DNA of 64,000 nt from Rhodohalobacter sp. SW132 (GTDB lineage Bacteria; Bacteroidota; Rhodothermia; Balneolales; Balneolaceae). The DNA lies in NCBI RefSeq assembly GCF_003390325.1, contig NZ_QUOK01000010.1, positions 1 through 64,000 on the forward strand. Reading direction: 5' to 3'. A program made the position numbers and the translations under genes. Positions 1,417 to 58,551 of the stretch are shown here, piece by piece (position 1 is the stretch's first letter; each line of letters opens with the position of its first letter). The notes under the pieces were generated by a model. It was not told where the DNA came from. It worked only from the letters and a program-made list of their open reading frames with translations, and did not search any database.

Positions 1417-1513
1417 ACGGTAAAAGTAAATATTGTAACCTGAGTTCCAAAATTGGCAGGTAAAACCCGAAAAAGAGCGTTAAATAAGTGATTTCATCAA
1501 GAGACTATAAACC

Positions 1514-1730
1514 AAGCACCGTAGGTGCGAAATATCCGTAGCCTGGCAAGACGACGAACCCATATTTACCCGCAATGTATGTTATTGAAATCAGATTGAA
1601 TTCAGGGTTCATTTGATGCCGCACCTACGGCGCTTCTTATTAATGGGGCCTCCGTATACCCCACGAAAATGCTGCGCATTCCCGTGGGGCTACGGACATG
1701 CCGCCCCGGAACGGGGCTGGTTTCATCCGT
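1514..1730 (+). repeat. IS200-like element copy E1 (no transposase)
   Basis: Non-autonomous copy of the element whose complete version lies at 2513-3309. It begins AAGCACCGTAGGTGCG and ends with the hairpin around GCCCCGGAACGGGGC. It lacks the CCCCAGGCC hairpin of the other copies: the outer GCACC..GGTGC repeat is joined directly to the inner GTAGGTGCG repeat, as expected from a deletion between the two similar repeats. The transposase gene is absent, leaving about 35 bases between the left and right halves. Confidence 0.75.
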
Positions 1731-1740
1731 GAAAAGATGA

Positions 1741-1948
1741 ACGCCATTGAATGAATCGAATAATTTGAACCTTTAAATCTGAGTTCGATTGCTAAATCAT
1801 GAATATAAAAATCCCCTTTGTTACGGGAGACTTCTTCCTGAATGATTTGAAAAGATTATGAATCGAACTGAGGTTCAAAAAATAATGCTGAACGATGTGC
1901 GGCTAAAAAAACGGGTTGTAGATAAATCAGTGTAAGAGGCAATAAACC
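1741..1948 (+). repeat. Spacer type A between elements E1 and E2
   Basis: This inter-element spacer is almost identical to 3865-4092. Both run from a GAATGAATCGAATAATTTG motif, through TTACGGGAGACTTCTTCC-like sequence, to TCAGTGTAAGAGGCAATAAA just before the next GCACC hairpin. A weaker relative precedes the dispersed copy at 27309. Its conservation shows that duplication units included element plus spacer. Confidence 0.7.
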
Positions 1949-2240
1949 GAGCACCATTGGTGCGTCATATCCGTAGCCCCAGGCCACTGCGCAGCGGTGG
2001 TCTGGGGTTAGAGGGGCGAACATCAGACATGGGAGCGCCGTAGTTAGCGATATATCCGTACTCTGGCAAGACGACGAACCCATATTTACCCGCAATGTAT
2101 GTTATTGAAATCAGATTAAATTCAGGGTTCATTTGATGCCGCACCTACGGAGCTTCTTATTAATGGGGCATCGTTATACCCCACGGAAATGCTACGCATT
2201 CCCGTGGGGCTACGGATATGCCGCCCCGGAACGGGGCTGG
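1949..2240 (+). repeat. IS200-like element copy E2 (no transposase)
   Basis: Non-autonomous copy. Features in order: GCACCATTGGTGC hairpin; the long imperfect hairpin with arms CCCCAGGCCACTGC and GCGGTGGTCTGGGG; GGGAGCGCCGTAG; a conserved ACGACGAACCCATATTTACC block; then the right half with GCACCTACGGAGC, the hairpin CCCCACGGAAATG..CATTCCCGTGGGG, and CCGCCCCGGAACGGGGC. The transposase gene is missing between the ACCCATATTTACC block and the right half. Confidence 0.75.
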
Positions 2241-2512
2241 CTTGTAGTTATAAAAAAGGTGAATGCCCTTGATTAAATCGAATAATTTGAATCTAAAATT
2301 CATGTTGATCGATGCGTAACCTAAAAAACTTTGTGTAAATAGATCTGTGTTAATGTGCATAAAGTAGTGCTGTCTCATGCATAAAGCTCCGGAAGAACGC
2401 TGACCAGACACATCGGAATTTCCTTATTTTATTGGCAGCTGATAGAAATTAAAAGCTCCTATGGAAAAAAACTTGCGGGTTTTACCCAACATAATATCGT
2501 TGACACGACATT
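2241..2512 (+). repeat. Spacer type B between elements E2 and E3
   Basis: This spacer is nearly identical to 3310-3580. Shared landmarks are TTGATTAAATCGAATAATTT, GTTGATCGATGCGTAACC, AAGCTCCGGAAGAACGC/CCC, ACTTGCGGGTTTTACCCAAC and TTGACACGACATTA just before the next GCACC hairpin. A diverged relative, in reverse orientation, lies inside the dispersed copy near 23080-23215. Confidence 0.7.
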
Positions 2513-3309
2513 AGCACCATTGGTGCGGCATAACCGTAGCCCCAGGCCATTGCGCAGCGGTGGCCTGGGGTTAATTAGTGGGCATGAAACATGGGAGCGC
2601 CGTAGGTGCGAAATATCCGTACCCTGCATGACGACCAACCCATTTTTACCCAAAATTTATTTTATTGAATTCGAAAACTTAATCAAGAGCTGCTAACTAA
2701 CCTATTAAAATGAACATATCATGCCAAACACCTATTCTAAGCTACATGCACAAATTATATTTGCCGTAAAGGGACGATCCAATTTCATTCACAATGAATG
2801 GAGAGATGAATTCTATAAATACATTTCCGGGATTGTAGGTGGGAAATCTCAAAAGCTATATTCCATCGGGGGTATGCCCGATCACATTCATTTGCTCATA
2901 GGATACAAACCTTCTGTTTCAATCTCTGATCTTGTAAGAGATATCAAATCCAACTCTTCAGCATTTGTTAACCGAAAGATGTTCAGTGATAAGAAATTTC
3001 AGTGGCAATCAGGATTTGGAGCGTTTAGTTACGGACAATCACAGATAGCCGATGTGATTCGATATATCGAAAATCAGCCAGAGCACCACAAACATCGAAC
3101 GTTCAAAGAAGAATATATTCAGTTTCTGAAGAATTTTAATATTGAATACGACTCAGACTATCTGTTTGAATTTTATGACTGAGATTGAATTCAGAGTCCA
3201 AATGATGCCGCGCCTACGGCGCTTATTTCTAATGGGGCATCCTTACACCCCACGGAAATGCTACGCATTCCCGTGGGGCTACGGATATGCCGCCCCGGAA
3301 CGGGGCTGG
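2513..3309 (+). mobile_element. Complete IS200-like element E3 with transposase
   Basis: The only copy in the array that still has its transposase gene (2721-3182). The left end carries the GCACC..GGTGC and CCCCAGGCC..GGCCTGGGG hairpins. The right end, starting just after the transposase stop codon, carries GCGCCTACGGCGC, the CCCCACGG..CCGTGGGG hairpin and GCCCCGGAACGGGGC. There are no terminal inverted repeats in the DDE-transposon sense; subterminal hairpins fit single-strand IS200/IS605-type transposition. Exact cleavage sites cannot be assigned from one window. Confidence 0.75.
2721..3182 (+). CDS. IS200/IS605-type HUH transposase (Y1, TnpA-like)
   Basis: A 153-residue protein, the usual size of IS200 TnpA. 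It has the histidine-hydrophobe-histidine motif as GGMPDHIHLLIGY (H55 and H57) and a candidate nucleophilic tyrosine, Y115, in DVIRYIENQ. The family cuts and joins single-stranded DNA through a covalent tyrosine-DNA intermediate and recognises hairpins near the element ends, which matches the hairpins on both sides of the gene. A REP-associated (RAYT) relative is an alternative, because the flanking hairpins occur in many transposase-free copies. The open frame appears intact. A 54-base piece of its 3' end reappears at 23359-23412. Confidence 0.88.
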   Translation: MPNTYSKLHAQIIFAVKGRSNFIHNEWRDEFYKYISGIVGGKSQKLYSIGGMPDHIHLLIGYKPSVSISDLVRDIKSNSSAFVNRKMFSDKKFQWQSGFGAFSYGQSQIADVIRYIENQPEHHKHRTFKEEYIQFLKNFNIEYDSDYLFEFYD

Positions 3310-3580
3310 CTCGTAGCTATAAAAAGGTGATTGTCCTTGATTAAATCGAATAATTTGAATCTAAAATTCATGTTGATCGATGCGTAACCTAAAAAAATTT
3401 GTGTAAATAGATCTGTGTTAAAGTGCATATAGTAGTGATGTCTTATAGATAAAGCTCCGGAAGAACCCCAACCAGACACATCGGGATTTCCTTATTTAAT
3501 TGGCAGCAGATAAAAATTCAAAGCTCCTATGGAAAAAACTTGCGGGTTTTACCCAACATAATATCATTGACACGACATTA
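3310..3580 (+). repeat. Spacer type B between elements E3 and E4
   Basis: Second copy of the type-B spacer (compare 2241-2512). It differs by scattered substitutions and single-base length changes only. Confidence 0.7.
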
Positions 3581-3864
3581 GCACCTTTGGTGCGTCATAT
3601 CCGTAGCCCCAGGCCACTGCGCAACGGTGGTCTGGGGTTAATTAGCGAGCATGAAACATGGGAGCGCCATAGGTGCGATATATCCTTAGCCTTGCAAGGC
3701 GACCAACCCATCTTTACCCACAATGGATATTATTGGATGAATTCAGGGTTCGAATGATGCCGCGCCTACTACGGCGCTTCTTTTTAATGGGGCATCGTTA
3801 TACCCCACGGAAATGCTGCGCATTCCCGTGGGGCTACGGATATGCCGCCCCGGAACGGGGCTGG
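3581..3864 (+). repeat. IS200-like element copy E4 (no transposase)
   Basis: Transposase-free copy with all hairpins present: GCACCTTTGGTGC, CCCCAGGCCACTGC/GGTGGTCTGGGG, GCGCCATAGGTGCG, CGCGCCTACTACGGCGC (a 3-base insertion relative to the others), CCCCACGG..CCGTGGGG and GCCCCGGAACGGGGC. Frames through it give proline-, tryptophan- and arginine-rich peptides that are artefacts of the hairpins. Confidence 0.75.
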
Positions 3865-4092
3865 TTTCATCCCTGAAAAGGTGAATGCCATTGAATGAAT
3901 CGAATAATTTGAACCTTTAAATCTGAGTTCGATTGTTAAATCATGAATATAAAAATCCCATTTGTAACGGGAGACTTCTTCCTGATTGATTTGAAATGAT
4001 TATGAATCAAACTGAGGTTTAAAAAAATGCTGAACGATGTGCGGCTTAAAAAACGGTTTGTAGATAAATCAGTGTAAGAGGCAATAAACCGA
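3865..4092 (+). repeat. Spacer type A between elements E4 and E5
   Basis: Second copy of the type-A spacer (compare 1741-1948). With it, the array reads E1-A-E2-B-E3(transposase)-B-E4-A-E5. Confidence 0.7.
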
Positions 4093-4329
4093 GCACCATT
4101 GGTGCGTCATATCCGTAGCCCCAGGCCACTGCGTAGCGGTGGCCTGGGGTTAATTAGCGAGCATGAAACATGGGAGCGCCGTAGGTGCGATATATCCGTA
4201 GCCTTGCAATACGAGGGACCCATTTTTATCCGCAATGTATTTTATTGAATTCAAGGTTCAAATGATGCCGAACCTACGGCACTTCTTATTAATGGGGCCT
4301 ACGGACATGCCGCCCCGAAGCGGGGCTGG
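4093..4329 (+). repeat. IS200-like element copy E5 (no transposase, right hairpin deleted)
   Basis: Transposase-free copy with the left hairpins intact. In the right half the CCCCACGG..CCGTGGGG hairpin is missing: AATGGGGCCTACGGACATG joins directly, consistent with a deletion between two GGGGC-type words. It ends at GCCCCGAAGCGGGGC. Confidence 0.7.
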
Positions 4330-14228: not shown

Positions 14229-15995
14229 ATGGGTATTGAGAGCATATTTGTTCTGGGAGTTATCTTTTTCTGCCTCCTGCTTTTGGTTTTTACAAAAATA
14301 TCTCCGGATGTTGTTTTTATTGGTGGCCTTACCCTAATCATTGTCTCTGGCATTATCCCGGTTAACGAGGCTCTTGTCGGGTTTTCGAACGAGGGGATGC
14401 TTACCGTTGCTGCATTGTATATTGTGGCGGCAGGGCTCAGAGAGACCGGTGCCATTCAGTTTGTGATCCAAAACCTGCTGGGATCTCCAAAGGAGATGTG
14501 GAAAACACAGGCGCGGATAATTGCTCCTGTTATGGGAATGAGTGCTTTTCTGAATAACACCCCCATTGTTGCCTCTTTTATACCGGCGCTCCAGGAATGG
14601 GCCCGCACCTATCGCGTGAAAGTATCCAAGCTGATGATTCCGCTCAGTTATGCTGCTATCCTTGGAGGAACCTGCACACTGATCGGAACGAGTACAAACC
14701 TGATCGTAAACGGACTGTTAATTTCGGAAAAAAACGTCTCCCTCGGTCTGTTTGAACCCGCATATGTGGGGGTGCCGATTGCGATTGCAGGTTTTATTTA
14801 CCTGCTAACCATTGGAAATCGCCTGCTTCCTGAAGGCGCGTCTGTCGCCGGAAGTTTTGAAAATACCCGGGAATACACCATTGAGATGATGATTCGGCCC
14901 GAAAGTCCTCTTATTGGAAAATCAATTGAAGATGCGGGGCTTCGTCAGCTTCCGGGCCTCTTTCTTGCGGAAATTGTCAGGAAAGATACGATTCTCGCGG
15001 CTGTAGATCCGGAAGAAGTACTCCAGGAAGGAGACCGGCTTATTTTTACCGGATTGGTGAATTCTATTGTGGATCTTCAGTCAATCAAGGGACTTGAACC
15101 CGCAACGGACCAGGTGTTTAAACTGGACGCCCCGCGTCGCGACCGCCATCTCGTGGAGGCGGTTATCTCCCAAACCCATCCCTTAAATGGGAAAACGGTA
15201 AAAGAGGGGGAGTTTCGGAATCATTATGGTGCTGTGATCCTGGCAGTATCGCGGCACGGGGAACGGATTGATAAAAAAGTCGGGGACATCATCCTGAAAA
15301 CCGGGGATATCTTGCTGATGGAGGCGCCAAGAAATTTTTCCGAGCGGTATAAATCATCGAACGAATATCTCCTGGTGAGCACCCTTGCCAAAAATGGGCA
15401 GCCCGATTATGAAAAAGGGTGGATTTCATGGCTAATACTTGCAGGAATGGTGTTTGTCGTGACGTTCGGGATTCTGAGTATGTTCCAGGCATCTTTTCTG
15501 GCAGCAGGGGCGATGCTTCTGACCGGTTGTACGCGGGCAGCAAATGCACGGTCGAGTATCGACTGGCAGGTTTTGATTGTGATTGCTGCGGCCCTGGGAA
15601 TCGGGAATGCCATGCAGGTTACAGGCGCGGCTGAGGTAGTGGCCGGTGGGTTCCTGGGATTTGCAGGAGATCACCCCTACGTGGCTATTGCCGCAACCTA
15701 TCTGATCACCTGGATGCTGACGGAGATGATCACTAATAACGCAGCAGCCGTACTGATTTTTCCAATAGCCATATCAACGGCGGCCAGCCTGGGTGTGGAT
15801 TTTATGCCTTTTGTGATGACGATCATTTTTGCAGCATCTGCAAGTTTTGCAACACCGATCGGCTATCAGACGAACCTGATGGTCTACGGCCCCGGCGGAT
15901 ACCATTTTTCCGATTTTCTCAAAGTAGGCCTGCCGCTGAATTTTATAGCGGGTGTTATAACGGTATTTTTAGTTCCAATTGTGTGGCCGGTGTGA
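14229..15995 (+). CDS. SLC13-family permease with two RCK_C (TrkA-C) domains
   Basis: 588 residues, the length of the DASS/SLC13 proteins with an inserted cytoplasmic region. The N-terminal membrane half contains FLNNTPIVASF and GTSTNLIVNGLL. A central soluble part (roughly residues 215-385) holds two RCK_C-like repeats (EMMIRPESPLIGKSIEDAGL and AVISQTHPLNGKTVKEGEF). The C-terminal membrane half contains TNNAAAVLIFPIAIS and TPIGYQTNLMVYGPGGY, the symmetric partner of the first ligand-binding hairpin. Members move anions such as sulfate with sodium. The sulfate-activation genes immediately downstream make sulfate the likely substrate. No substrate-defining residue can be read directly. Confidence 0.88.
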   Translation: MGIESIFVLGVIFFCLLLLVFTKISPDVVFIGGLTLIIVSGIIPVNEALVGFSNEGMLTVAALYIVAAGLRETGAIQFVIQNLLGSPKEMWKTQARIIAPVMGMSAFLNNTPIVASFIPALQEWARTYRVKVSKLMIPLSYAAILGGTCTLIGTSTNLIVNGLLISEKNVSLGLFEPAYVGVPIAIAGFIYLLTIGNRLLPEGASVAGSFENTREYTIEMMIRPESPLIGKSIEDAGLRQLPGLFLAEIVRKDTILAAVDPEEVLQEGDRLIFTGLVNSIVDLQSIKGLEPATDQVFKLDAPRRDRHLVEAVISQTHPLNGKTVKEGEFRNHYGAVILAVSRHGERIDKKVGDIILKTGDILLMEAPRNFSERYKSSNEYLLVSTLAKNGQPDYEKGWISWLILAGMVFVVTFGILSMFQASFLAAGAMLLTGCTRAANARSSIDWQVLIVIAAALGIGNAMQVTGAAEVVAGGFLGFAGDHPYVAIAATYLITWMLTEMITNNAAAVLIFPIAISTAASLGVDFMPFVMTIIFAASASFATPIGYQTNLMVYGPGGYHFSDFLKVGLPLNFIAGVITVFLVPIVWPV

Positions 15996-16001
15996 AATGT
16001 A

Positions 16002-16054
16002 CCGCGGCGTCGCCGACCCGCGCAGCTTAAGTAACGCGGCATCGCCGATCCGTG
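16002..16054. repeat. Two related short GC-rich hairpins
   Basis: CGCGGCGTCGCCGACCCGCG and CGCGGCATCGCCGATCCGTG lie 32 bp apart just after the permease stop codon. Each contains a CGGC..GCCG stem. They differ at three positions. Confidence 0.5.
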
Positions 16055-16193
16055 TTTCAAAGGCTGGGGGGATCGTGAACGGATGACGGATAACCGGTGA
16101 CGGATTCGACCTGCAAGATTGCGAACGCAGAGAGCTGCTGGCAGAGTCGAGGATAGGATGCAGGACAATGGATGGGAGTCTTGTGGCAGTTGA

Positions 16194-16355
16194 CTGGAGA
16201 CGGAGGACGGGTGACTAATGACCGAAGACGGAGGACGGAAGACCGACTTCGAAACAGGTTATAGGGCCTTTAGAATATTATATTAAAATTGATTATTGAA
16301 TGGAAACTACGGTCTACGGTCTACGGTCTTCTGTCCCCGGTCTTCCGTCCGAAAC
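16194..16355. repeat. Inverted 'word' repeat locus (GGACGGAAGACCG type)
   Basis: The left arm (16194-16255) is built from degenerate repeats of GACGGAGGACGG and GAAGACCG. The right arm (16306-16355) is the inverse: CGGTCTACGGTCTACGGTC followed by TTCTGTCCCCGGTCTTCCGTCC. The spacer is AT-rich. It forms an imperfect long hairpin directly upstream of cysQ. Confidence 0.6.
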
Positions 16356-16386
16356 AAAATCTAAATCATCAATCAAACGCAAACAC

Positions 16387-17148
16387 ATGAATATCGACAT
16401 CAATATCATCAACAAAATCGCCAGGCAGGCGGGTAGTGAAATTTTAAAATTTTACGACGAAGACCGTGACATAGAGGTGAGCCGAAAATCGGATGATTCT
16501 CCTCTGACTAAAGCTGATATGGCGTCCCATCGTGCAATCGTGAGCGGCCTGGAGAAAGAGTACCCGGAGATTCCCGTACTGTCTGAGGAGTCGGAAATTC
16601 CGGACTACTCCGTGAGAAAAAACTGGAATCGGTATTTTCTGATTGATCCGCTGGATGGCACAAAGGAGTTTATCAAAAAGAATGGGGAGTTTACCGTTAA
16701 TATCGCGTTGATTGATGAAAATGAGCCGGTTTTGGGAGTAGTCTATATACCGGCAGAAGAAGTTCTCTATTTTGCAGATGCAAAAGAGGGCTCGTTTAAG
16801 CAGGTTGGGGATGGACCGGTTCAAAAAATTGAACACGCCAGGTATAGTAAAGATAAACCGGCGCGAATAATGGTCAGCCGTTCGCACCGGGGAAACGATA
16901 CCAAAGAGCGCCTGGCCGGGATGGGAATTGAGGTCGGTGAGGAAATTCCATCCGGCAGTTCTCTCAAAATTTGTTTCGTTGCGGAAGGTAAGGCTGATCT
17001 CTACCCACGTTTCGGACCCACCATGGAGTGGGATACGGCTGCCGCGGATGCAGTCTACCGGTACTCCGGAAAAAATGGACCGGTGAAATCACCGCTGAAG
17101 TATAATAAGGAGGATTTGCATAATCCGGAGTTTATTATTGGGTTGTGA
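16387..17148 (+). CDS. 3'(2'),5'-bisphosphate nucleotidase CysQ
   Basis: 253 residues from the ATG at 16387; an upstream in-frame ATG at 16300 would add a low-complexity tail made of the word repeat and is rejected. Inositol-monophosphatase superfamily motifs are complete: LSEESEIPD (metal ligand E), FLIDPLDGTKEFIKKNGEF (the D-P-L-D-G-T core with CysQ-type K-E-F-I) and MEWDTAAADAVY (C-terminal metal aspartate). The enzyme hydrolyses PAP, formed from PAPS during sulfate reduction, to AMP and phosphate, preventing inhibitory build-up. It sits between the putative sulfate permease and cysD, as expected for the pathway. Confidence 0.93.
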   Translation: MNIDINIINKIARQAGSEILKFYDEDRDIEVSRKSDDSPLTKADMASHRAIVSGLEKEYPEIPVLSEESEIPDYSVRKNWNRYFLIDPLDGTKEFIKKNGEFTVNIALIDENEPVLGVVYIPAEEVLYFADAKEGSFKQVGDGPVQKIEHARYSKDKPARIMVSRSHRGNDTKERLAGMGIEVGEEIPSGSSLKICFVAEGKADLYPRFGPTMEWDTAAADAVYRYSGKNGPVKSPLKYNKEDLHNPEFIIGL

Positions 17149-17156
17149 GCTGTTGT

Positions 17157-17201
17157 GGAGCGGAGCTCCGGTTTGGGGGTTACTGTGCGGAGCACAGTAA
17201 C
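17157..17201. repeat. Triloop hairpin pair, copy 1
   Basis: Two adjacent hairpins share a GGA triloop: stem GGAGC/GCTCC (17157-17169) and stem GTTACTGTGC/GCACAGTAAC (17179-17201, perfect 10 bp). The same pair recurs at 17272-17319 with compensated stem changes. Confidence 0.65.
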
Positions 17202-17271
17202 CAGCACTGAGCCGACGGGGGACTGAAGACCGAGTGTGGAAATAGACCTATGCATTTGGCGAACGGATAAT

Positions 17272-17319
17272 GGAGCGGAGCTCCGGGTTGCTTGTTACAG
17301 TGCAGAGCACTGTAACAAG
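17272..17319. repeat. Triloop hairpin pair, copy 2
   Basis: Stem GGAGC/GCTCC with loop GGA at 17272-17284, then a perfect 13-bp stem CTTGTTACAGTGC/GCACTGTAACAAG with loop AGA at 17291-17319. Compared with copy 1, one stem base pair is exchanged from T-A to A-T. Confidence 0.65.
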
Positions 17320-17327
17320 AAGTGATG

Positions 17328-17365
17328 CTGCACCCTGCACCCTGCACCCTGCACCCTGCACCCTG
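17328..17365. repeat. Heptanucleotide tandem repeat (CTGCACC, 5.4 copies)
   Basis: Five perfect copies of CTGCACC plus a partial sixth copy. It lies about 170 bp upstream of the cysD start, inside a structured intergenic region. Seven-base units can change copy number by slippage. Confidence 0.85.
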
Positions 17366-17535
17366 AAAAAACACCAATTCGATATTTGAACATTATCACC
17401 ATATTTTTTTTACAAACTTTGTCAGGTACAGAATCCGGTCCTCTGTCTTCCGTCTTCCGTCTTTACAACTCGATATTTGAACAAAAACACGGTACTTTAA
17501 TAAATCTACAAACAGCACATTCAGAACCATTGATT

Positions 17536-18441
17536 ATGAAACAGTTTAAGCATTCACATCTCAAAGAGCTGGAAGATGAAGGTATTTACATCATGAGGGA
17601 GGTGGCGGCCCAGTTTGAGCGGCCGGTTCTCTTGTTTTCGGGAGGGAAAGATTCAATCGTGATGGTGCATCTTGCACAAAAAGCATTTTATCCCGGGAAG
17701 ATTCCTTTTCCGCTGATGCACGTGGATACAGGTCACAATTTTCCGGAGACGATCGAATTCCGTAATCGCCTGGTAGAGCGGCTGGACGTGGACCTGATTG
17801 TGGGAAGTGTTCAGGAATCTATTGATGAAGGAAAGGTGAAGGAGGAGACCGGTCCGGATGCCAGCCGGAATGCTCTTCAGACCGTCACGCTGCTGGATAC
17901 GCTCAAAAAACACCAGGTGGATGCGGCTCTTGGCGGCGGCCGGCGAGATGAGGAGAAAGCACGCGCCAAAGAAAGGTTTTTCTCCCACAGGGACAGCTTT
18001 GGCCAGTGGGATCCAAAAAATCAGCGGCCGGAGTTGTGGAACCTCTATAACGGCCGCAAAAATATGGGCGAAAGTTTTCGGGTGTTTCCAATCAGCAACT
18101 GGACAGAAATGGATATCTGGCAGTATATCGACAGGGAAGAGATCGAAATTCCATCGCTCTATTTTGCTCACGAGAGGAAAGTATTTAACCGGCGCGGAGT
18201 CTGGCTGGCGGATACCGATTTTGTAAACCGTATGGATGAAGAAGAGCTGGAAGAACGAACCGTCCGGTTCCGAACCATTGGCGACGCCACCTGCACGGGA
18301 GCTGTTCTTTCAACCGCATCAAATATGGAAGAAATCATCCAGGAAGTGGCATCTGCAAGACAAACCGAACGCGGCAATCGTCACGATGACAAACGAAGCG
18401 AAACGGCGATGGAGGATCGGAAGCGGCAGGGGTACTTTTAA
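17536..18441 (+). CDS. Sulfate adenylyltransferase subunit 2 (CysD)
   Basis: 301 residues, standard CysD length, starting at the ATG at 17536 (MKQFKHSHLKELEDE). The PP-loop SGGKDS in VLLFSGGKDSIVMVHLA binds ATP. HVDTGHNFPETIEFR and GGGRRDEEKARAKERFFSHR are hallmark CysD blocks, and FRTIGDATCTGA lies near the C-terminus. With CysN it forms ATP sulfurylase, making adenosine 5'-phosphosulfate from ATP and sulfate, the first step of sulfate assimilation. The upstream 50-codon extension of the frame is repeat-derived and not part of the protein. Its partner cysNC lies 538 bp downstream, displaced by the four-helix-bundle gene. Confidence 0.95.
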   Translation: MKQFKHSHLKELEDEGIYIMREVAAQFERPVLLFSGGKDSIVMVHLAQKAFYPGKIPFPLMHVDTGHNFPETIEFRNRLVERLDVDLIVGSVQESIDEGKVKEETGPDASRNALQTVTLLDTLKKHQVDAALGGGRRDEEKARAKERFFSHRDSFGQWDPKNQRPELWNLYNGRKNMGESFRVFPISNWTEMDIWQYIDREEIEIPSLYFAHERKVFNRRGVWLADTDFVNRMDEEELEERTVRFRTIGDATCTGAVLSTASNMEEIIQEVASARQTERGNRHDDKRSETAMEDRKRQGYF

Positions 18442-18444
18442 TTT

Positions 18445-18480
18445 ATGAGTTGTGAGTTTTTAGTGGTGAGTGTTTAGTTG
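18445..18480. repeat. Left arm of inverted 'word' repeat around the four-helix-bundle gene
   Basis: Degenerate repeats of GAGT/TTTAGTG words (TGAGTTGTGAGTTTTTAGTG, then GTGAGTGTTTAG) starting just after the cysD stop codon. The arm is matched in inverse orientation by 18916-18968. Confidence 0.6.
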
Positions 18481-18557
18481 TCCTTTTTAATGTGTAAGGG
18501 ATCTTGTGATAATTGATCATATAGATAGATTAAAACCTATAATTAAAATCAATTGTC

Positions 18558-18917
18558 ATGAATGATTACCAGGGTCCGGTTTACGAAAAAAGCTTTGAAT
18601 TTGCACTTGTTATTATTGAACTCTATAAGAAGTTGGTTGATCAAAAAGAGTATGTATTGTCTAAGCAACTTTTAAGATCAGGTACAAGCGTAGGTGCAAA
18701 TGTTGTAGAAGCATCCGCTGCGTACTCGAAAGCTGATTTTGCTTACAGAATGTCAGTTGCTTCCAGAGAAGCGAGAGAAGCAAATTGGTGGTTATTACTA
18801 CTAAAAAAGAGTCAGTTAGTATCAGTTGAATTAAATAATGAAATAGAATCTTGTGGTGAACTAATAAAACTACTGACATCAATCGTCAAAACATCACAGG
18901 CTTCGTTGAAGAAATAA
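18558..18917 (+). CDS. Four-helix-bundle protein (23S rRNA intervening-sequence / S23 type)
   Basis: 119 residues, the usual size of this family. Diagnostic blocks are LLRSGTSVGANVVEASAAYS and FAYRMSVASREAREANWWLL, which form the helices that assemble as a pentameric bundle in solved relatives. Family members are encoded inside 23S rRNA intervening sequences or as solitary genes; related bundles act as accessory proteins of diversity-generating retroelements. The molecular function of the solitary forms is not established. Here it splits the cysD-cysNC pair and is bracketed by inverted arms of degenerate ACTCA-type words (18445-18480 and 18916-18968), suggesting it arrived as a discrete element. 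No reverse transcriptase or rRNA is nearby. Confidence 0.9.
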   Translation: MNDYQGPVYEKSFEFALVIIELYKKLVDQKEYVLSKQLLRSGTSVGANVVEASAAYSKADFAYRMSVASREAREANWWLLLLKKSQLVSVELNNEIESCGELIKLLTSIVKTSQASLKK

Positions 18918-18968
18918 ACTAAAAACTGAGCACTTATAACTCAGCACTAAACACTGAGCACTCAGAAC
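18916..18968. repeat. Right arm of inverted 'word' repeat around the four-helix-bundle gene
   Basis: CTAAAAACTGAGCACTTATAA followed by CTCAGCACTAAACACTGAGC and ACTCAGAAC. It begins at the last base of the four-helix-bundle stop codon and ends shortly before the cysNC start. Inverse of 18445-18480. Confidence 0.6.
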
Positions 18969-18979
18969 TATAAAAAATT

Positions 18980-20968
18980 ATGAGCACAGACAACGGCAAG
19001 AAACACAACCACGAACCCGAAGATAACAAATACCTCGACATGGACCTTCTTCGCTTTACCACGGCGGGGAGTGTGGATGACGGAAAGAGTACGCTGATCG
19101 GGCGTTTACTTTATGATTCGAAATCTATTTTTGAGGATCAGATGGAGGCGATCGAGAAAACGAGCAAGAGCAGCGGGGAGGAGGAGGTGAACCTGGCGCT
19201 TTTGACGGATGGCCTGAAAGCCGAGCGGGAGCAAAAGATTACGATTGATGTTGCCTACCGATATTTTGCAACGCCCAAGCGGAAGTTTATAATCGCCGAT
19301 ACGCCGGGGCACACGCAATACACCCGGAATATGGTAACCGGAGCATCTACGGCAGAACTGGCTATTGTTTTGATTGATGCCTCCAAAGGAGTTCTCACTC
19401 AGTCGAGACGCCACGCGTTTATCTCCTCTCTGCTGCAGATTCCGCACCTTGTTGTGGCGGTAAACAAGATGGACCTGGTAAACTACAGTGAAGATCGCTT
19501 TAACGAAATTGTGAGCGATTTCCGTGATTTTGCTAAAAAACTGGAGGTAGATAACATCACCTATATTCCCATTTCGGCACTGAAAGGGGATAATGTGGTG
19601 AGCAAGACGCGGACGAAAGGGGGCGATGAGTCCAATCACATGCCATGGTATAACGGCCCGACGCTGCTTCACCATCTCGAAACAGTAAAAGTAGATGCGT
19701 CGCATAATGTGATTGATTTCCGCTTTCCGGTGCAGTATGTGATTCGGCCGAATCAAAATTTCCGTGGATTTTCGGGAGCAATAGCATCAGGAAGAATTAA
19801 GCCGGGAGATGAGATTACCGCGCTTCCATCAAAAATATCAAGCCGCGTGAAAGAGATTGTCACCAAAGATGGAAATCTTGAGGAGGCACTGCCAGGAGAT
19901 TCTGTTGTGCTGACAATTGAGGATGAGATTGATATCTCCCGGGGTGATATGATCGTGAGAAAGAATAATGTACCCAAGTTGACGAACACGTTTGAGGCGT
20001 ATCTCTGCTGGATGAGTGACGAGCAGATGGAGACCGGCAAGCAGTACCTGATCATGCACACCACCAAGACGACCCCGGTTTATATCGATAAACTGGTATA
20101 CAAAATGAATGTGGACAGCCTTAGCCGTGAAGATGCTGATCATCTTAAACTGAATGAAATTGGCCGCGCGAAATTTACGACGGCACAGCCTCTTTTTATT
20201 GATGCGTACCAGGTGAACCAGCGAACCGGGAGTTTTATCATTGTGGATCCCGCCACGAATGTAACTCTGGGTGCAGGTATGATTCGTGCAGTCTCAACAG
20301 AATCCAATGGACGGGGTGAAATAACCGACGACGGCAGACAGAAGGCCGGTGGACCTTCGGCCGACAGTCCTCCGACCTCCGTCTCCCCGAACGTCGTTTG
20401 GGAGCCGTGGAACATTCCTCGCGAAGAACGTGAGAAACGGAACGGACATAAAGCAGCAGTGATCTGGCTGACCGGGATTTCGGGTGCAGGGAAAAGCACG
20501 ATCGCCAAAACCCTGGAGAAAAAACTCTGGGAGGATGGGAAACAAACCGTGCTGCTGGATGGCGACCAGGTGCGCCACGGACTGAATGGGGATCTCGGTT
20601 TTAGTCCGGAAGATCGTACGGAAAATATCCGGCGGGTGGGCGAAGCAGCCCGGCTTTTCTTTGAACATGGAAACATTGTTTTATGCACATTTGTGTCGCC
20701 GTATGCGAAAGACAGGAAAAAAGTCCGGTCACTGTTTGGTGAAGAACGGTTTGCTGAAGTGCATATTCACTGTGACCCCAAAACTGCACAGCAACGTGAT
20801 CCGAAAGGACTCTACCAGAAAGCAAAAGAGGGTGAAATCAAAGGACTGACAGGGTATGATGCCGGTTATGAAACTTCAGATGATTGTAAGCTGACCGTGA
20901 ATACCGATGAAACTAATGTTGAAGATGCCGTGAAGGAGATCCGTAAATTGCTGAAAGAGATGATCTGA
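18980..20968 (+). CDS. Bifunctional sulfate adenylyltransferase subunit 1 / APS kinase (CysNC)
   Basis: 662 residues, a natural fusion. Residues ~20-450 are CysN, an EF-Tu-like GTPase: P-loop GSVDDGKST at 30-38, ADTPGHTQYTRNM, and NKMD, followed by two beta-barrel domains. A low-complexity linker (~455-480) leads to CysC with P-loop GISGAGKST at 499-507 and LDGDQVRHGLNGDLGFS. Together with CysD it couples GTP hydrolysis to APS formation, then phosphorylates APS to PAPS. Fusion of these activities is common. No stop or frameshift is seen. The start ATG follows closely after the right arm of the word repeat and has no strong Shine-Dalgarno, so expression may rely on a promoter inside the inserted segment. 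Confidence 0.95.
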   Translation: MSTDNGKKHNHEPEDNKYLDMDLLRFTTAGSVDDGKSTLIGRLLYDSKSIFEDQMEAIEKTSKSSGEEEVNLALLTDGLKAEREQKITIDVAYRYFATPKRKFIIADTPGHTQYTRNMVTGASTAELAIVLIDASKGVLTQSRRHAFISSLLQIPHLVVAVNKMDLVNYSEDRFNEIVSDFRDFAKKLEVDNITYIPISALKGDNVVSKTRTKGGDESNHMPWYNGPTLLHHLETVKVDASHNVIDFRFPVQYVIRPNQNFRGFSGAIASGRIKPGDEITALPSKISSRVKEIVTKDGNLEEALPGDSVVLTIEDEIDISRGDMIVRKNNVPKLTNTFEAYLCWMSDEQMETGKQYLIMHTTKTTPVYIDKLVYKMNVDSLSREDADHLKLNEIGRAKFTTAQPLFIDAYQVNQRTGSFIIVDPATNVTLGAGMIRAVSTESNGRGEITDDGRQKAGGPSADSPPTSVSPNVVWEPWNIPREEREKRNGHKAAVIWLTGISGAGKSTIAKTLEKKLWEDGKQTVLLDGDQVRHGLNGDLGFSPEDRTENIRRVGEAARLFFEHGNIVLCTFVSPYAKDRKKVRSLFGEERFAEVHIHCDPKTAQQRDPKGLYQKAKEGEIKGLTGYDAGYETSDDCKLTVNTDETNVEDAVKEIRKLLKEMI

Positions 20969-21054
20969 TTTAGTCAGCCAGGTGAACATTAAAAAGAGAT
21001 AATTCACCTAAAAGTGCTCAAATCAGTACATTTACATTAAATAAGCAATTGTAT

Positions 21055-22101
21055 ATGAAACCATTACAAACACATACTAAGTTGAAGCCAACCGGAAATA
21101 AGTTTTCAAGAGTGTTCTATCTTGGATACTACCTTAAAGAGCTGGACCGTATCAAGTTTCAGAAATTTCTTGAATTTACATCTGAAAAAACCGGAAAAGG
21201 GAAAACTGAATTATTATCTGACATTCTATCCTCCGTTTTTAAGTACAATATTTCGATCCTGGAATATTTTCAGTTTCATTTTTATGATTTATCCGACAAA
21301 GAGCGCAGGGAGTGGGCAGGTACCGGCCATATGTATGAGTATCAGCTGAGGATGAATCCAAAAGAGAAACGGAAGATTCTGGATGATAAAACGCTCTTTT
21401 ACAGAAACTTTGGGGAATTTTTTGTCCATGCGGTAGCTGATCAAAAAGATTTGGTAGTGAAACCTGAACTTGCAGAAAAGATTCTGTCGAATCCTTCCGG
21501 AAAGATTGTTTTTAAAGCTGCTGCAGGAAAGTGCGGAGCTGAGGTCGAGATTCGAAAAACATCAGAATTTAATCCGAAAAGCCTGGTCGAATTCATGCAA
21601 GATCATGACTATGACTTAGTTGAAGAATTTATTATTCAACATTCTGAAATTAATAGAATGTCCCCCTCAGCGGTGAATACAATCCGAATGATTACCGAAC
21701 TCAATGAAGAGGGTGAAGTTGAACTATTGGGTTGCCGTTTCAGAATATCCGTTGATTCGCACGTCGATAACATGGCTGCAGGGAATCTTGCTGCAACGAT
21801 TGATGAAAAAACCGGCCGGGTAACCGGTAAGGCTGTATATAGTGATATTACAAAGCCAGACGTTGAGTATCATCCCGTTACCAATGTCAGAATTACAGGT
21901 TTTCAAATTCCATATTGGGATGAGATTGTTGAAATGGTTAAAAGGGCAGCCAAAAAACACCCTCAAAACCGTTCTATCGGGTGGGATGTAGTACTTACAG
22001 AAAAAGGTCCGGGTCTCATTGAAGGCAATCACGACTGGTGTAAACTGTTATGGCAGCTTCCTGAGAAAAAAGGGATGAAGTCGAAATTAAAACTCGTTTA
22101 A
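21055..22101 (+). CDS. Sugar-transfer-associated ATP-grasp protein
   Basis: 348 residues from the ATG at 21055; a TTG two codons upstream is a less likely start. The sequence matches the pattern of the ATP-grasp family found beside sugar transferases: GKIVFKAAAGKCGAEVEI in the first ATP-grasp strand region, a VEEFIIQHSEIN switch segment, MSPSAVNTIRMIT, and a C-terminal GWDVVLTEKGPGLIEGNHDWC where acidic and asparagine residues would hold Mg-ATP. ATP-grasp enzymes ligate a carboxylate to an amine or thiol; here ligation of an amino acid or related group to a glycan precursor is plausible. It lies 10 bp upstream of the initiating sugar transferase, supporting a joint role. Confidence 0.82.
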   Translation: MKPLQTHTKLKPTGNKFSRVFYLGYYLKELDRIKFQKFLEFTSEKTGKGKTELLSDILSSVFKYNISILEYFQFHFYDLSDKERREWAGTGHMYEYQLRMNPKEKRKILDDKTLFYRNFGEFFVHAVADQKDLVVKPELAEKILSNPSGKIVFKAAAGKCGAEVEIRKTSEFNPKSLVEFMQDHDYDLVEEFIIQHSEINRMSPSAVNTIRMITELNEEGEVELLGCRFRISVDSHVDNMAAGNLAATIDEKTGRVTGKAVYSDITKPDVEYHPVTNVRITGFQIPYWDEIVEMVKRAAKKHPQNRSIGWDVVLTEKGPGLIEGNHDWCKLLWQLPEKKGMKSKLKLV

Positions 22102-26187: not shown

Positions 26188-26208
26188 ATGCAGGGAGAGC
26201 ATAGTTAG

Positions 26209-26343
26209 TATTGGGTAGCAGGTAGCAGGGGGATTTCTCTCAATTTATTTTATATTCATCAAGATATTGCAAATCTTTACCCGATACCCGATACCCGATA
26301 CCCGATACCCGATACCCGATACCCGATACCCGATACCCGATAC
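26209..26343. repeat. Inverted word repeat with ACCCGAT heptamer array (9 copies)
   Basis: The right part (26279-26343) is nine perfect copies of ACCCGAT plus AC. The left arm (26209-26231, TATTGGGTAGCAGGTAGCAG followed by GGG) is a degenerate inverse of it, separated by an AT-rich stretch, so the whole can fold as a long imperfect hairpin. The array ends 8 bp before the ATG at 26352 and occupies the place where a ribosome-binding site is expected. Confidence 0.85.
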
Positions 26344-37700: not shown

Positions 37701-37750
37701 GGAGCGTAAATCTTTGACGCTGCACAAAAATATTATCTGGTATAAAACTT

Positions 37751-37887
37751 TTCCTCATTCCGGTGTTCTGAACTGGAATGGTTTTCCATGAAATTTTTCC
37801 TGGTTCCGGTGCTCTGTGCCGAAAGGGTTTCCCATAAAGCTATATCTCGTTCAGGTGCTCTGCACCGAAACGAGAAACCATAAAGCT
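37751..37887. repeat. Three imperfect ~46-bp hairpin repeats in tandem
   Basis: Copies at about 37751-37795, 37797-37841 and 37843-37887. Each has a short stem around GGTGCTCTGCACC (variants GGTGTTCTGAAC and GGTGCTCTGTGCC), an outer stem (for example CATTCC/GGAATG, CTCGTTC/GAAACGAG), then a TTTCCATGAAAT or CCATAAAGCT tail. They lie between converging genes. Confidence 0.7.
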
Positions 37888-57239: not shown

Positions 57240-58496
57240 TTGGCTAAGGAAAATGCGCAGAATGTTTATCTGACAAAAGTACATCAGCGGGATAGCTTTG
57301 AAAAGCTTGAAAAGGCGATTGGAGCCGGTAAAATGGAATATTTTGCAACCGGTGAAAGACTGGCAAAAAAACTTGAAAGCGAACTTCCCTCCGCTGTCAT
57401 TATCGATGAAGACCACATCCGTAACCTCCCGGAATTTGTAGAGATTGTATTTACTCAAAAACCGGGAAGGCGATTTATCCCCGCTGCTGTTCTGACTGAT
57501 GACCCGAAAATCTCCAAGTCCAGATTCAGTAAATGCCATTTCCCGATTACGCTGATCCAAAGAGATTCTTACCAGGAGCTGCTGGAATTCATCCGCAGGG
57601 CTCTAAAGCCTTCCGTAAAAGTGAAGTTTTGGGGAGTGCGCGGCTCAACGCCTTGTGCAAACAGTGAAAATATTTTTTACGGTGGAAATACAAGCTGTGT
57701 TCAGATTGAAATACCGGGCTACGACAAACTGCTGATTCTCGACTCGGGTACGGGCATCCGAAACCTTGGGAATTTTCTTGAGAACTACTCTTCCGGCCCG
57801 ATTCACGGCGACCTTTTTATCACCCACCCGCACTGGGATCACATCCAGGGGTTTCCATTTTTTACTCCATTCTACGAAAAAGAGAACAGTTTCAGAATTC
57901 ATCTGCCTGAGCAATATCGCGGCGGGGCAGAAGAGATTTTATCAGGACATCTCACGAAAACCTTTTTCCCGGTAACGCTCGATATGCTTGCTTCGGACCT
58001 GACCTATGTTACACAAAAAGAAGAACCTGAGCGAATGGATGCATTTAGTGTGGACTACCTGGTAGCAAATCATCCGACTAAAACAGCCATCTACCGGTTC
58101 AGGATTAAGGACTATACTATTATTTATGCACCTGATAACGAGTTACCGCTCACCGCATCCCCGCTGAGATATATTGATAAGTTCTGCGATTTTATAAAAG
58201 ATTGCGATCTGCTGATCCACGATGGGCAGTTCAATCTCGAAACGTTTAAAACACGTGAGGGGTGGGGCCACTCTGCCTGGGAACGGGTGCTGGAACTGGC
58301 AAAATCAAGCGGAGTAAAGCGGCTGATCCTTACCCATCACGATCCAAATTCTGATGATGAATACCTGAACAGACTGTCAGGTATCGTAGACTCGTACCGC
58401 GGCAATCCGTTTGAGATGATCGAGTTTGCAAGAGAAGGAAAATTTGTTGCCCTGCCCCTGAACGACACGGTTGAAATATCGAATATTGAATCCTGA
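57240..58496 (+). CDS. MBL-fold hydrolase with N-terminal receiver-like domain
   Basis: 418 residues starting at a TTG at 57240 with GGAG upstream. The metallo-beta-lactamase fold begins at VKFWGVRGSTPCANSENIFY; metal motif THPHWDHIQGFP supplies H-x-H-x-D-H, and later D and H ligands lie in YAPDNE, LIHDGQF and LILTHHDPNSD. The first ~120 residues look like a degenerate response-regulator receiver (ESELPSAVIIDEDHI, RRFIPAAVLTDDP, CHFPITLIQRDSYQELLEFI) without an obvious lysine-aspartate pair. Predicted phosphodiesterase or hydrolase acting on a cyclic nucleotide or similar ester. The final codons (V-E-I-S-N-I-E-S) come from an inverted word repeat. Confidence 0.85.
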   Translation: MAKENAQNVYLTKVHQRDSFEKLEKAIGAGKMEYFATGERLAKKLESELPSAVIIDEDHIRNLPEFVEIVFTQKPGRRFIPAAVLTDDPKISKSRFSKCHFPITLIQRDSYQELLEFIRRALKPSVKVKFWGVRGSTPCANSENIFYGGNTSCVQIEIPGYDKLLILDSGTGIRNLGNFLENYSSGPIHGDLFITHPHWDHIQGFPFFTPFYEKENSFRIHLPEQYRGGAEEILSGHLTKTFFPVTLDMLASDLTYVTQKEEPERMDAFSVDYLVANHPTKTAIYRFRIKDYTIIYAPDNELPLTASPLRYIDKFCDFIKDCDLLIHDGQFNLETFKTREGWGHSAWERVLELAKSSGVKRLILTHHDPNSDDEYLNRLSGIVDSYRGNPFEMIEFAREGKFVALPLNDTVEISNIES

Positions 58497-58551
58497 ACGC
58501 CGAATTTCGAACACTTCGATATTCAAAATTCATTGTTCAGCGTTCGATATT
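58476..58551. repeat. Inverted word repeat (GAATATTGAACGC type), probable bidirectional terminator
   Basis: Left arm ATATCGAATATTGAATCCTG, then AACGCCGAATTTCGAAC; right arm TTCGATATTCAAAATTCATTG, then TTCAGCGTTCGATATT. The arms are about 37 bp each with a 2-3 bp gap, and the right arm ends in a TTTTTT run. The left arm overlaps the last codons of the MBL gene, and the structure lies between converging genes. Confidence 0.65.

Follow-up and report, generated by a model that had tools for sequence, protein, structure and literature searches.

Inverted arms of seven-base repeats around a PF05635 gene between cysD and cysNC: what looks like a widespread, unrecognised element of bacterial genomes

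Genes of the PF05635 family lie, in at least four bacterial phyla, between ordinary genes and within inverted arms made of seven-base repeats, and the arrangement looks like a widespread element that has gone unrecognised. The case described here comes from Rhodohalobacter sp. SW132, in which an intact PF05635 open reading frame of 119 amino acids parts cysD from cysNC (a cysN-cysC fusion), all on one strand. It is highly probable that the gene and its arms constitute a real unit. The fuller proposal, comprising the architecture of the element, the binding of its arms, copying between hairpins and the joint rewriting of both arms, stands in our judgement at about even chances.

The PF05635 gene has so far been met chiefly in the inserts that interrupt the rRNA genes of bacteria at helix 9, 25 or 45 of the 23S rRNA, and proposals that these intervening sequences (IVS) are mobile are old. 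To our knowledge, their origin and function have stayed unexplained for over 25 years, and we know of no catalytic residues in the small oligomeric helix bundle that the gene encodes.

The element between cysD and cysNC

In the window, by which is meant the whole stretch of 64,000 nucleotides that was analysed, the locus comprises the following features.

17536..18441 (ATG 17536), + strand: cysD, sulfate adenylyltransferase subunit 2 (PRK05253, 1.5e-139; TIGR02039, 9.9e-132)
18443..18478, + strand: left arm, GAGT/TTTAGT heptad-type words (inverted repeats; tandem repeat of period 14)
18493..18521, + strand: putative promoter-like motif TGTAAGG-N17-TCATA in the interval from left arm to gene
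18558..18917, + strand: PF05635/TIGR02436 four-helix-bundle gene, 23S rRNA intervening-sequence protein family (profile matches, predicted fold)
18918..18969, + strand: right arm, ACTCAGC/ACTAAA heptad-type words (complementary to the left arm; flank score)
18980..20968, + strand: cysNC, bifunctional sulfate adenylyltransferase subunit 1/adenylylsulfate kinase (PRK05506, 4.9e-268)

The preliminary description of this DNA had claimed that a PF05635 gene splits cysD from cysNC inside inverted arms, and this is borne out (gene at 18558-18917; arms at 18443-18478 and 18918-18969). Its placing of the start of the right arm on the final base of the gene's stop codon also holds, the start being that base or the one after it, while the left arm sets in 2-4 bases past the cysD stop. 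Two inverted-repeat pairs make up the arms, 18455-18478 with 18946-18969 (83% complementary) and 18443-18464 with 18918-18939 (82%), and tandem heptad-type repeats are present on both sides. The flank-against-flank score of the element is 22; random placements in relatives reach at most 18 (n=1200), and 0.9% of 1216 control placements beside PF05635 loci attain 22 or more. PF05635 is the sole coding content between the arms, where no Y1 HUH transposase is encoded. An Rfam search of 15900-21500 gave no match, the element lying between protein genes and outside 23S rRNA, and a search of the Rhodohalobacter sp. SW132 assembly for LSU rRNA was likewise without a match.

The product of the gene matches PF05635 at 1.3e-22 (80.4 bits; curated cut-off 33.8) and TIGR02436 at 4.8e-26 (91.1 bits; cut-off 24). 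Its predicted fold has four helices (pLDDT 91.5) and is matched best by the chains of 2rld, the structure of the family member BT_0352 (TM 0.81-0.88 on the query, 44-49% identity); the nearest solved structures, 2rld and 2gsc, were each deposited with five chains. The protein is almost neutral in charge (16 K+R, 14 D+E). Across 17 pairs of PF05635 genes, dN/dS lies at 0.02-0.18, which reveals strong purifying selection and shows the protein to be functional.

An overall likeness of fold to Avd of the diversity-generating retroelements emerges from weak structural matches to Avd in the complexes of these retroelements (TM 0.6-0.7, E 0.1-0.5). On that likeness one could imagine a retro-type element whose protein acts in the manner of Avd, a reading that we hold to be scarcely credible. 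Diversity-generating retroelements possess a reverse transcriptase and a template/variable repeat, whereas neither is found at the window element; the reverse transcriptase matches of this genome fall on contigs C1, C3 and C7, and none falls on the window's contig, C10. Moreover, PF00078 is absent from three genomes that carry 15, 15 and 12 copies of the gene (G034, G317 and G238). Reverse transcriptase was rejected as the mover on this last ground and, judging from these genome sequences, is probably not needed by the element in general.

The promoter-like motif recurs upstream of many family members. Of 64 loci in the family, 25 have TGTAAGG within 250 bp upstream, where the expectation is 0.008 per 250 bp. 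The longer form, TGTAAGG-N17-TC(A/T)TA, was observed before many PF05635 genes and likewise ahead of GxxExxY and Y1_Tnp genes (window 18493-18521, L001, L006, L013, L026, L095, L100, L115 and others). The genes so preceded might together form a single sigma-factor regulon of mobile cargo.

Copies and gene-less hairpins in the same genome

When the whole genome of Rhodohalobacter sp. SW132 was searched, it proved to have nine PF05635 genes, word arms flanking all nine, and at eight of them the score lies beyond the 95th percentile for controls. It had been anticipated that other copies would have the same arms. Inverted word arms are indeed present, but the arm sequence is not common to them, most loci having heptamers of their own. 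In this genome the words are mostly locus-specific (GTATCAG, CACTTCT, GGTGCAG, GAGTGCT, TCGAATA and others), and for several of the nine loci the same or similar words recur in arrays or hairpins without a gene. A single end sequence shared by every copy was rejected, and since the words differ at most loci, the arms are not fixed transposon ends.

Five gene-less word hairpins had been reported in the window, a detail that is reproduced only in part: two hairpins are clear (16187-16349 and 58469-58551), and there are one-sided or weak arrays at about 17328-17365 and 26205-26343.

16187..16349, no strand: gene-less word hairpin GACGGAG / CTACGGT, CTTCCGTC (heptad-hairpin scan)
17328..17365, no strand: one-sided heptamer array, CTGCACC x5.4 (word family of the arms of element L003 of this genome)
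26205..26343, no strand: array of TACCCGA heptamers (x9.4), its left partner GGGTAGCAGG being short and weak (words similar to element L001)
58469..58551, no strand: gene-less word hairpin TATCGAA / TTCGATA (words of elements L008 and L009 of this genome)

Hairpins of this kind resemble MITEs in look, and six Y1_Tnp matches are present in the genome, one of them inside the window (2733-3077). Both observations would suit a non-autonomous transposon that is mobilised in trans by an ordinary transposase of the host, for instance a Y1/RAYT enzyme. Such an origin is nonetheless very improbable, since the arms vary by locus and hence offer no common end to one enzyme, and since the RAYT loci of this genome carry repeats of another, REP type. 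The Y1 (REP-associated) transposase gene at 2733-3077 stands amid inverted REP-like repeats of ~50 bp (window 1500-4270), a system separate from the word hairpins. A further tandem repeat of the window, at 37742-37870, has a 46-bp unit in 2.8 copies.

Distribution of the arms

PF05635 loci (n=175) were drawn from the family, the remainder of the phylum and the named organisms of a genome collection, and were compared with control placements in the same contigs, the threshold being the 95th percentile of the latter. Inverted arms exceed this threshold at 153 of the 175 loci (median 18 vs 9, p ~1e-84), strong arms being absent at 22; many of these loci are orthologous, so that the effective sample is smaller than 175, and the named ones were picked for their likeness to a single subfamily and over-represent the fadJ-fadA site. 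Self-matches at lags 7, 14 and 21 are raised only within ~150 bp of the PF05635 gene (lag 7: 0.386 vs 0.25), no other tested lag being raised comparably around these genes. Further, a heptad array is found in the 200-bp flank at 86% of loci, as compared with 6% of stretches 700-900 bp away.

The family is present in 232 of 296 genomes of the phylum, with up to ~15 copies per genome. Copies from Nitrospirota, Acidobacteriota and Ignavibacteriota bear the same kind of arms, those outside the phylum having come in part from a search of four genomes behind named loci. Heptad hairpins number 2.3 per 100 kb in genomes with at least nine copies and 0.3 in those with none or one, a comparison confounded by genome compaction and relatedness; the same two factors confound the pooled regions, where 2 of 24 hairpins lie in 600 of 1584 kb (p 0.001), and a firm link between gene-less hairpins and copy number was accordingly rejected.

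In ~1.66 Mb of sampled DNA, the PF05635 gene of the window is the only small gene inside the arms of one heptad hairpin, and the other enclosed genes lie between two separate hairpins or repeat arrays. GxxExxY genes were considered as another cargo and rejected: they too have inverted arms, but the heptad periodicity is weak. These genes (TIGR04256; L095-L102, in three genomes) carry other words, CTTTGCG- and TCTGTG-like.

Comparison of junctions across relatives

Empty cysD-cysN junctions had been proposed as a thing to seek in related genomes, and they exist. Adjacent cysD and cysN occur in 28 genomes, this one included. Ten hold the gene in arms (nine intact, one broken), seven have gene-less word hairpins of 76-165 bp, five have a one-sided heptad and six are plain, at 11-64 bp. 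The occupants belong to several PF05635 subfamilies, with differing words. The junction has thus been occupied repeatedly, and gene-less hairpins stand where other species hold the gene; the suggestion that such hairpins are the counterpart of the gene-bearing form gains from the seven seen at this very junction. The relatives do not all hold an armless gene at this place, and family members elsewhere do have inverted words beside them. In L066, L081 and L086 the word repeats carry on, in frame, into the opening codons of cysN, the arm there being part of the N-terminus.

The largest group of loci at one site is the fadJ-fadA junction, with 45 PF05635 loci in word arms across Bacteroidota (e.g. 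L018, L196 and L222). Over 32 loci at this junction, divergence of the PF05635 protein tracks that of the adjacent thiolase (Mantel r 0.57, p 0.001), and the stable placement between the fatty-acid oxidation genes fadJ and fadA may reflect a function for the operon. Most copies are old residents that have descended mainly vertically, and no gain or loss of the element was seen at the level of strains.

Turnover of the arms and probable movement of the gene

Two copies on contig 12 of this genome, L008 and L009, have genes that are 96% identical. Their similarity covers both arms and ends there, the neighbours being unrelated, and this pair, together with the recurrence of the arms, supports the earlier view of gene plus arms as a discrete unit. 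A third hairpin between the two has identical words and no gene. Only 2.7 kb separates the copies, however, and a local duplication, or conversion from one nearby repeat to the other, would explain them as well; their borders are fuzzy because the ends are repeats, which would mask any target-site duplication. Elsewhere, L214 and L246 have a related gene and shared words at different sites. The twin hairpins of L337 were considered as a fresh hop and rejected, the genes there having been duplicated in tandem.

Species that share a site have different words there, but both arms change together. Own arms out-pair cross-species swaps at the same site in 610 pairs vs 56 (means 18.0 vs 12.9); these pairs are not independent, and the comparison over 22 sites gives p 0.003. 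Change can also be confined to one arm, as in L141/L147, where decay is so confined, and in L196/L198, where a 14-base unit is lost on one side only. Mismatches between arms comprise 174 G.U and 200 A.C.

The better pairing of own arms would be expected of an RNA-processing module, in which the arms form a long stem in the operon transcript, RNase III cuts that stem, the insert is thereby excised or the message severed at the gene junction, and complementarity is selected. The precedent in rRNA makes this a serious rival, given that 23S IVS elements with a PF05635 gene have terminal inverted repeats that RNase III cuts (PMC4990558). Moreover, the arms are placed between stop and start codons, and the region folds better than its shuffles (z -3.46), with the arms partly paired. 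However, selected RNA pairing predicts G.U in excess of A.C, and the counts give no sign of selection for pairing in the sense RNA; RNA-level selection on the arms was rejected on these counts. The entry of words into cysN coding sequence at three loci likewise speaks against the RNA-processing reading, which we regard as rather unlikely.

Template switching within the DNA hairpin would leave the same pattern of joint turnover. Taken further, slippage and template switching might form hairpins in spacers as a mutational by-product, with the gene merely sitting there and no element at all. According to PMC4679880, which cites Mrazek et al. (2007), heptanucleotides outnumber all other long simple repeats in many prokaryotes, with slippage as the proposed cause. 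The whole 14-base unit by which the arms of the close pair L196/L198 differ and the lack of a G.U bias also fit such a by-product. It fails to predict arms on both sides of one gene family in several phyla and few in random genome stretches, as well as the presence of gene and arms together at two unrelated sites, and is in our estimation decidedly unlikely.

A possible mechanism

The reading that we favour is that of an element in which the PF05635 gene, often with a promoter-like motif, sits in the loop of an inverted repeat composed of arrays of seven-base words, an architecture that the sequences show directly. The element would be an equivalent of the 23S rRNA intervening sequences that stands free of rRNA. 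The protein, probably an oligomer to judge by its crystal relatives, may bind the nucleic acid of its own arms. On rare occasions the gene may spread when one hairpin is copied to another of similar words through their homology, be it by ectopic recombination, gene conversion or template switching, and gene-less hairpins would then act as donors and acceptors. Within a hairpin, slippage and template switching would rewrite both arms jointly, copy by copy. Against this reading stand the long residence of most copies, the near-neutral charge of the window protein, the short distance between L008 and L009 and the 22 loci that lack strong arms.

Copying of this kind needs no transposase, and would account for the absence both of such an enzyme and of a common end sequence, for the words common to gene-less and gene-bearing hairpins, and for the change of subfamily at one junction. 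As a specific mechanism it is tentative, and on balance somewhat improbable. The earlier expectation that the mode of movement would be new is unsupported as stated; sequence cannot show it, and ordinary recombination between word hairpins could serve. About as doubtful is the broader idea of a mobile class spanning phyla, in which the hairpin is recognised by the PF05635 protein, which would promote its copying and upkeep and the renewal of its words, the rRNA intervening sequences being those members that landed in rRNA.

Relation to known systems

The element shares the testable features of the 23S IVS except for location in rRNA. The likeness to the IVS of Coxiella, Leptospira and Xanthomonas lies in the protein family, in a gene between terminal inverted repeats and in similar size. 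The Coxiella IVS has 428 nt, with tandem heptamers (GACAGAT) directly before an S23p open reading frame that is decaying (PMC4990558), whereas the PF05635 protein here is under purifying selection. Moreover, the 23S IVS sit in an rRNA helix, whereas the window element lies between protein genes; and the elements described here, unlike the 23S IVS, are many per genome, mostly have their own words and occur in gene-less forms.

Heptamer repeats have themselves been described. In Geobacter metallireducens, the available text of PMC2700814 reads tandem heptamers (MTYCTGA, GGACCGG), present in many copies, as binding sites of a global regulator; its class 3 sites, on opposite strands, and its four-heptamer elements resemble the gene-less hairpins, and that text makes no link to PF05635. 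TAACTGA heptamers of Beggiatoaceae, cyanobacteria and Bacteroidetes are intergenic and near start codons (PMC4679880); these repeats and the cyanobacterial STRRs differ from the present elements in being mostly direct repeats of one word, with no inverted arms and no gene inside. MITEs and REP/RAYT systems are likewise dispersed intergenic hairpins with or without a gene between the arms, whereas the present element is without a conserved arm sequence and without a transposase. As with a transposon or MITE, gene and ends are found at new sites and relatives have empty sites, but the terminal inverted repeats are not conserved among copies.

Text searches confined to open-access papers found none joining PF05635 genes to heptamer arms, and the novelty is for that reason provisional. 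A text search of the literature for the heptamer words themselves returned nothing.

Significance and outlook

The association described here joins two unexplained features of bacterial genomes, namely intergenic heptamer repeats and the proteins annotated as 'four helix bundle proteins'. The series of hairpins with co-changing arms would allow a direct comparison of compensatory change, slippage and template switching. Finally, should heptamer hairpins between ordinary genes prove a common setting for the PF05635 gene, the rRNA insertions would be the unusual case, and culturable Bacteroidota would give access to the element in its principal form.
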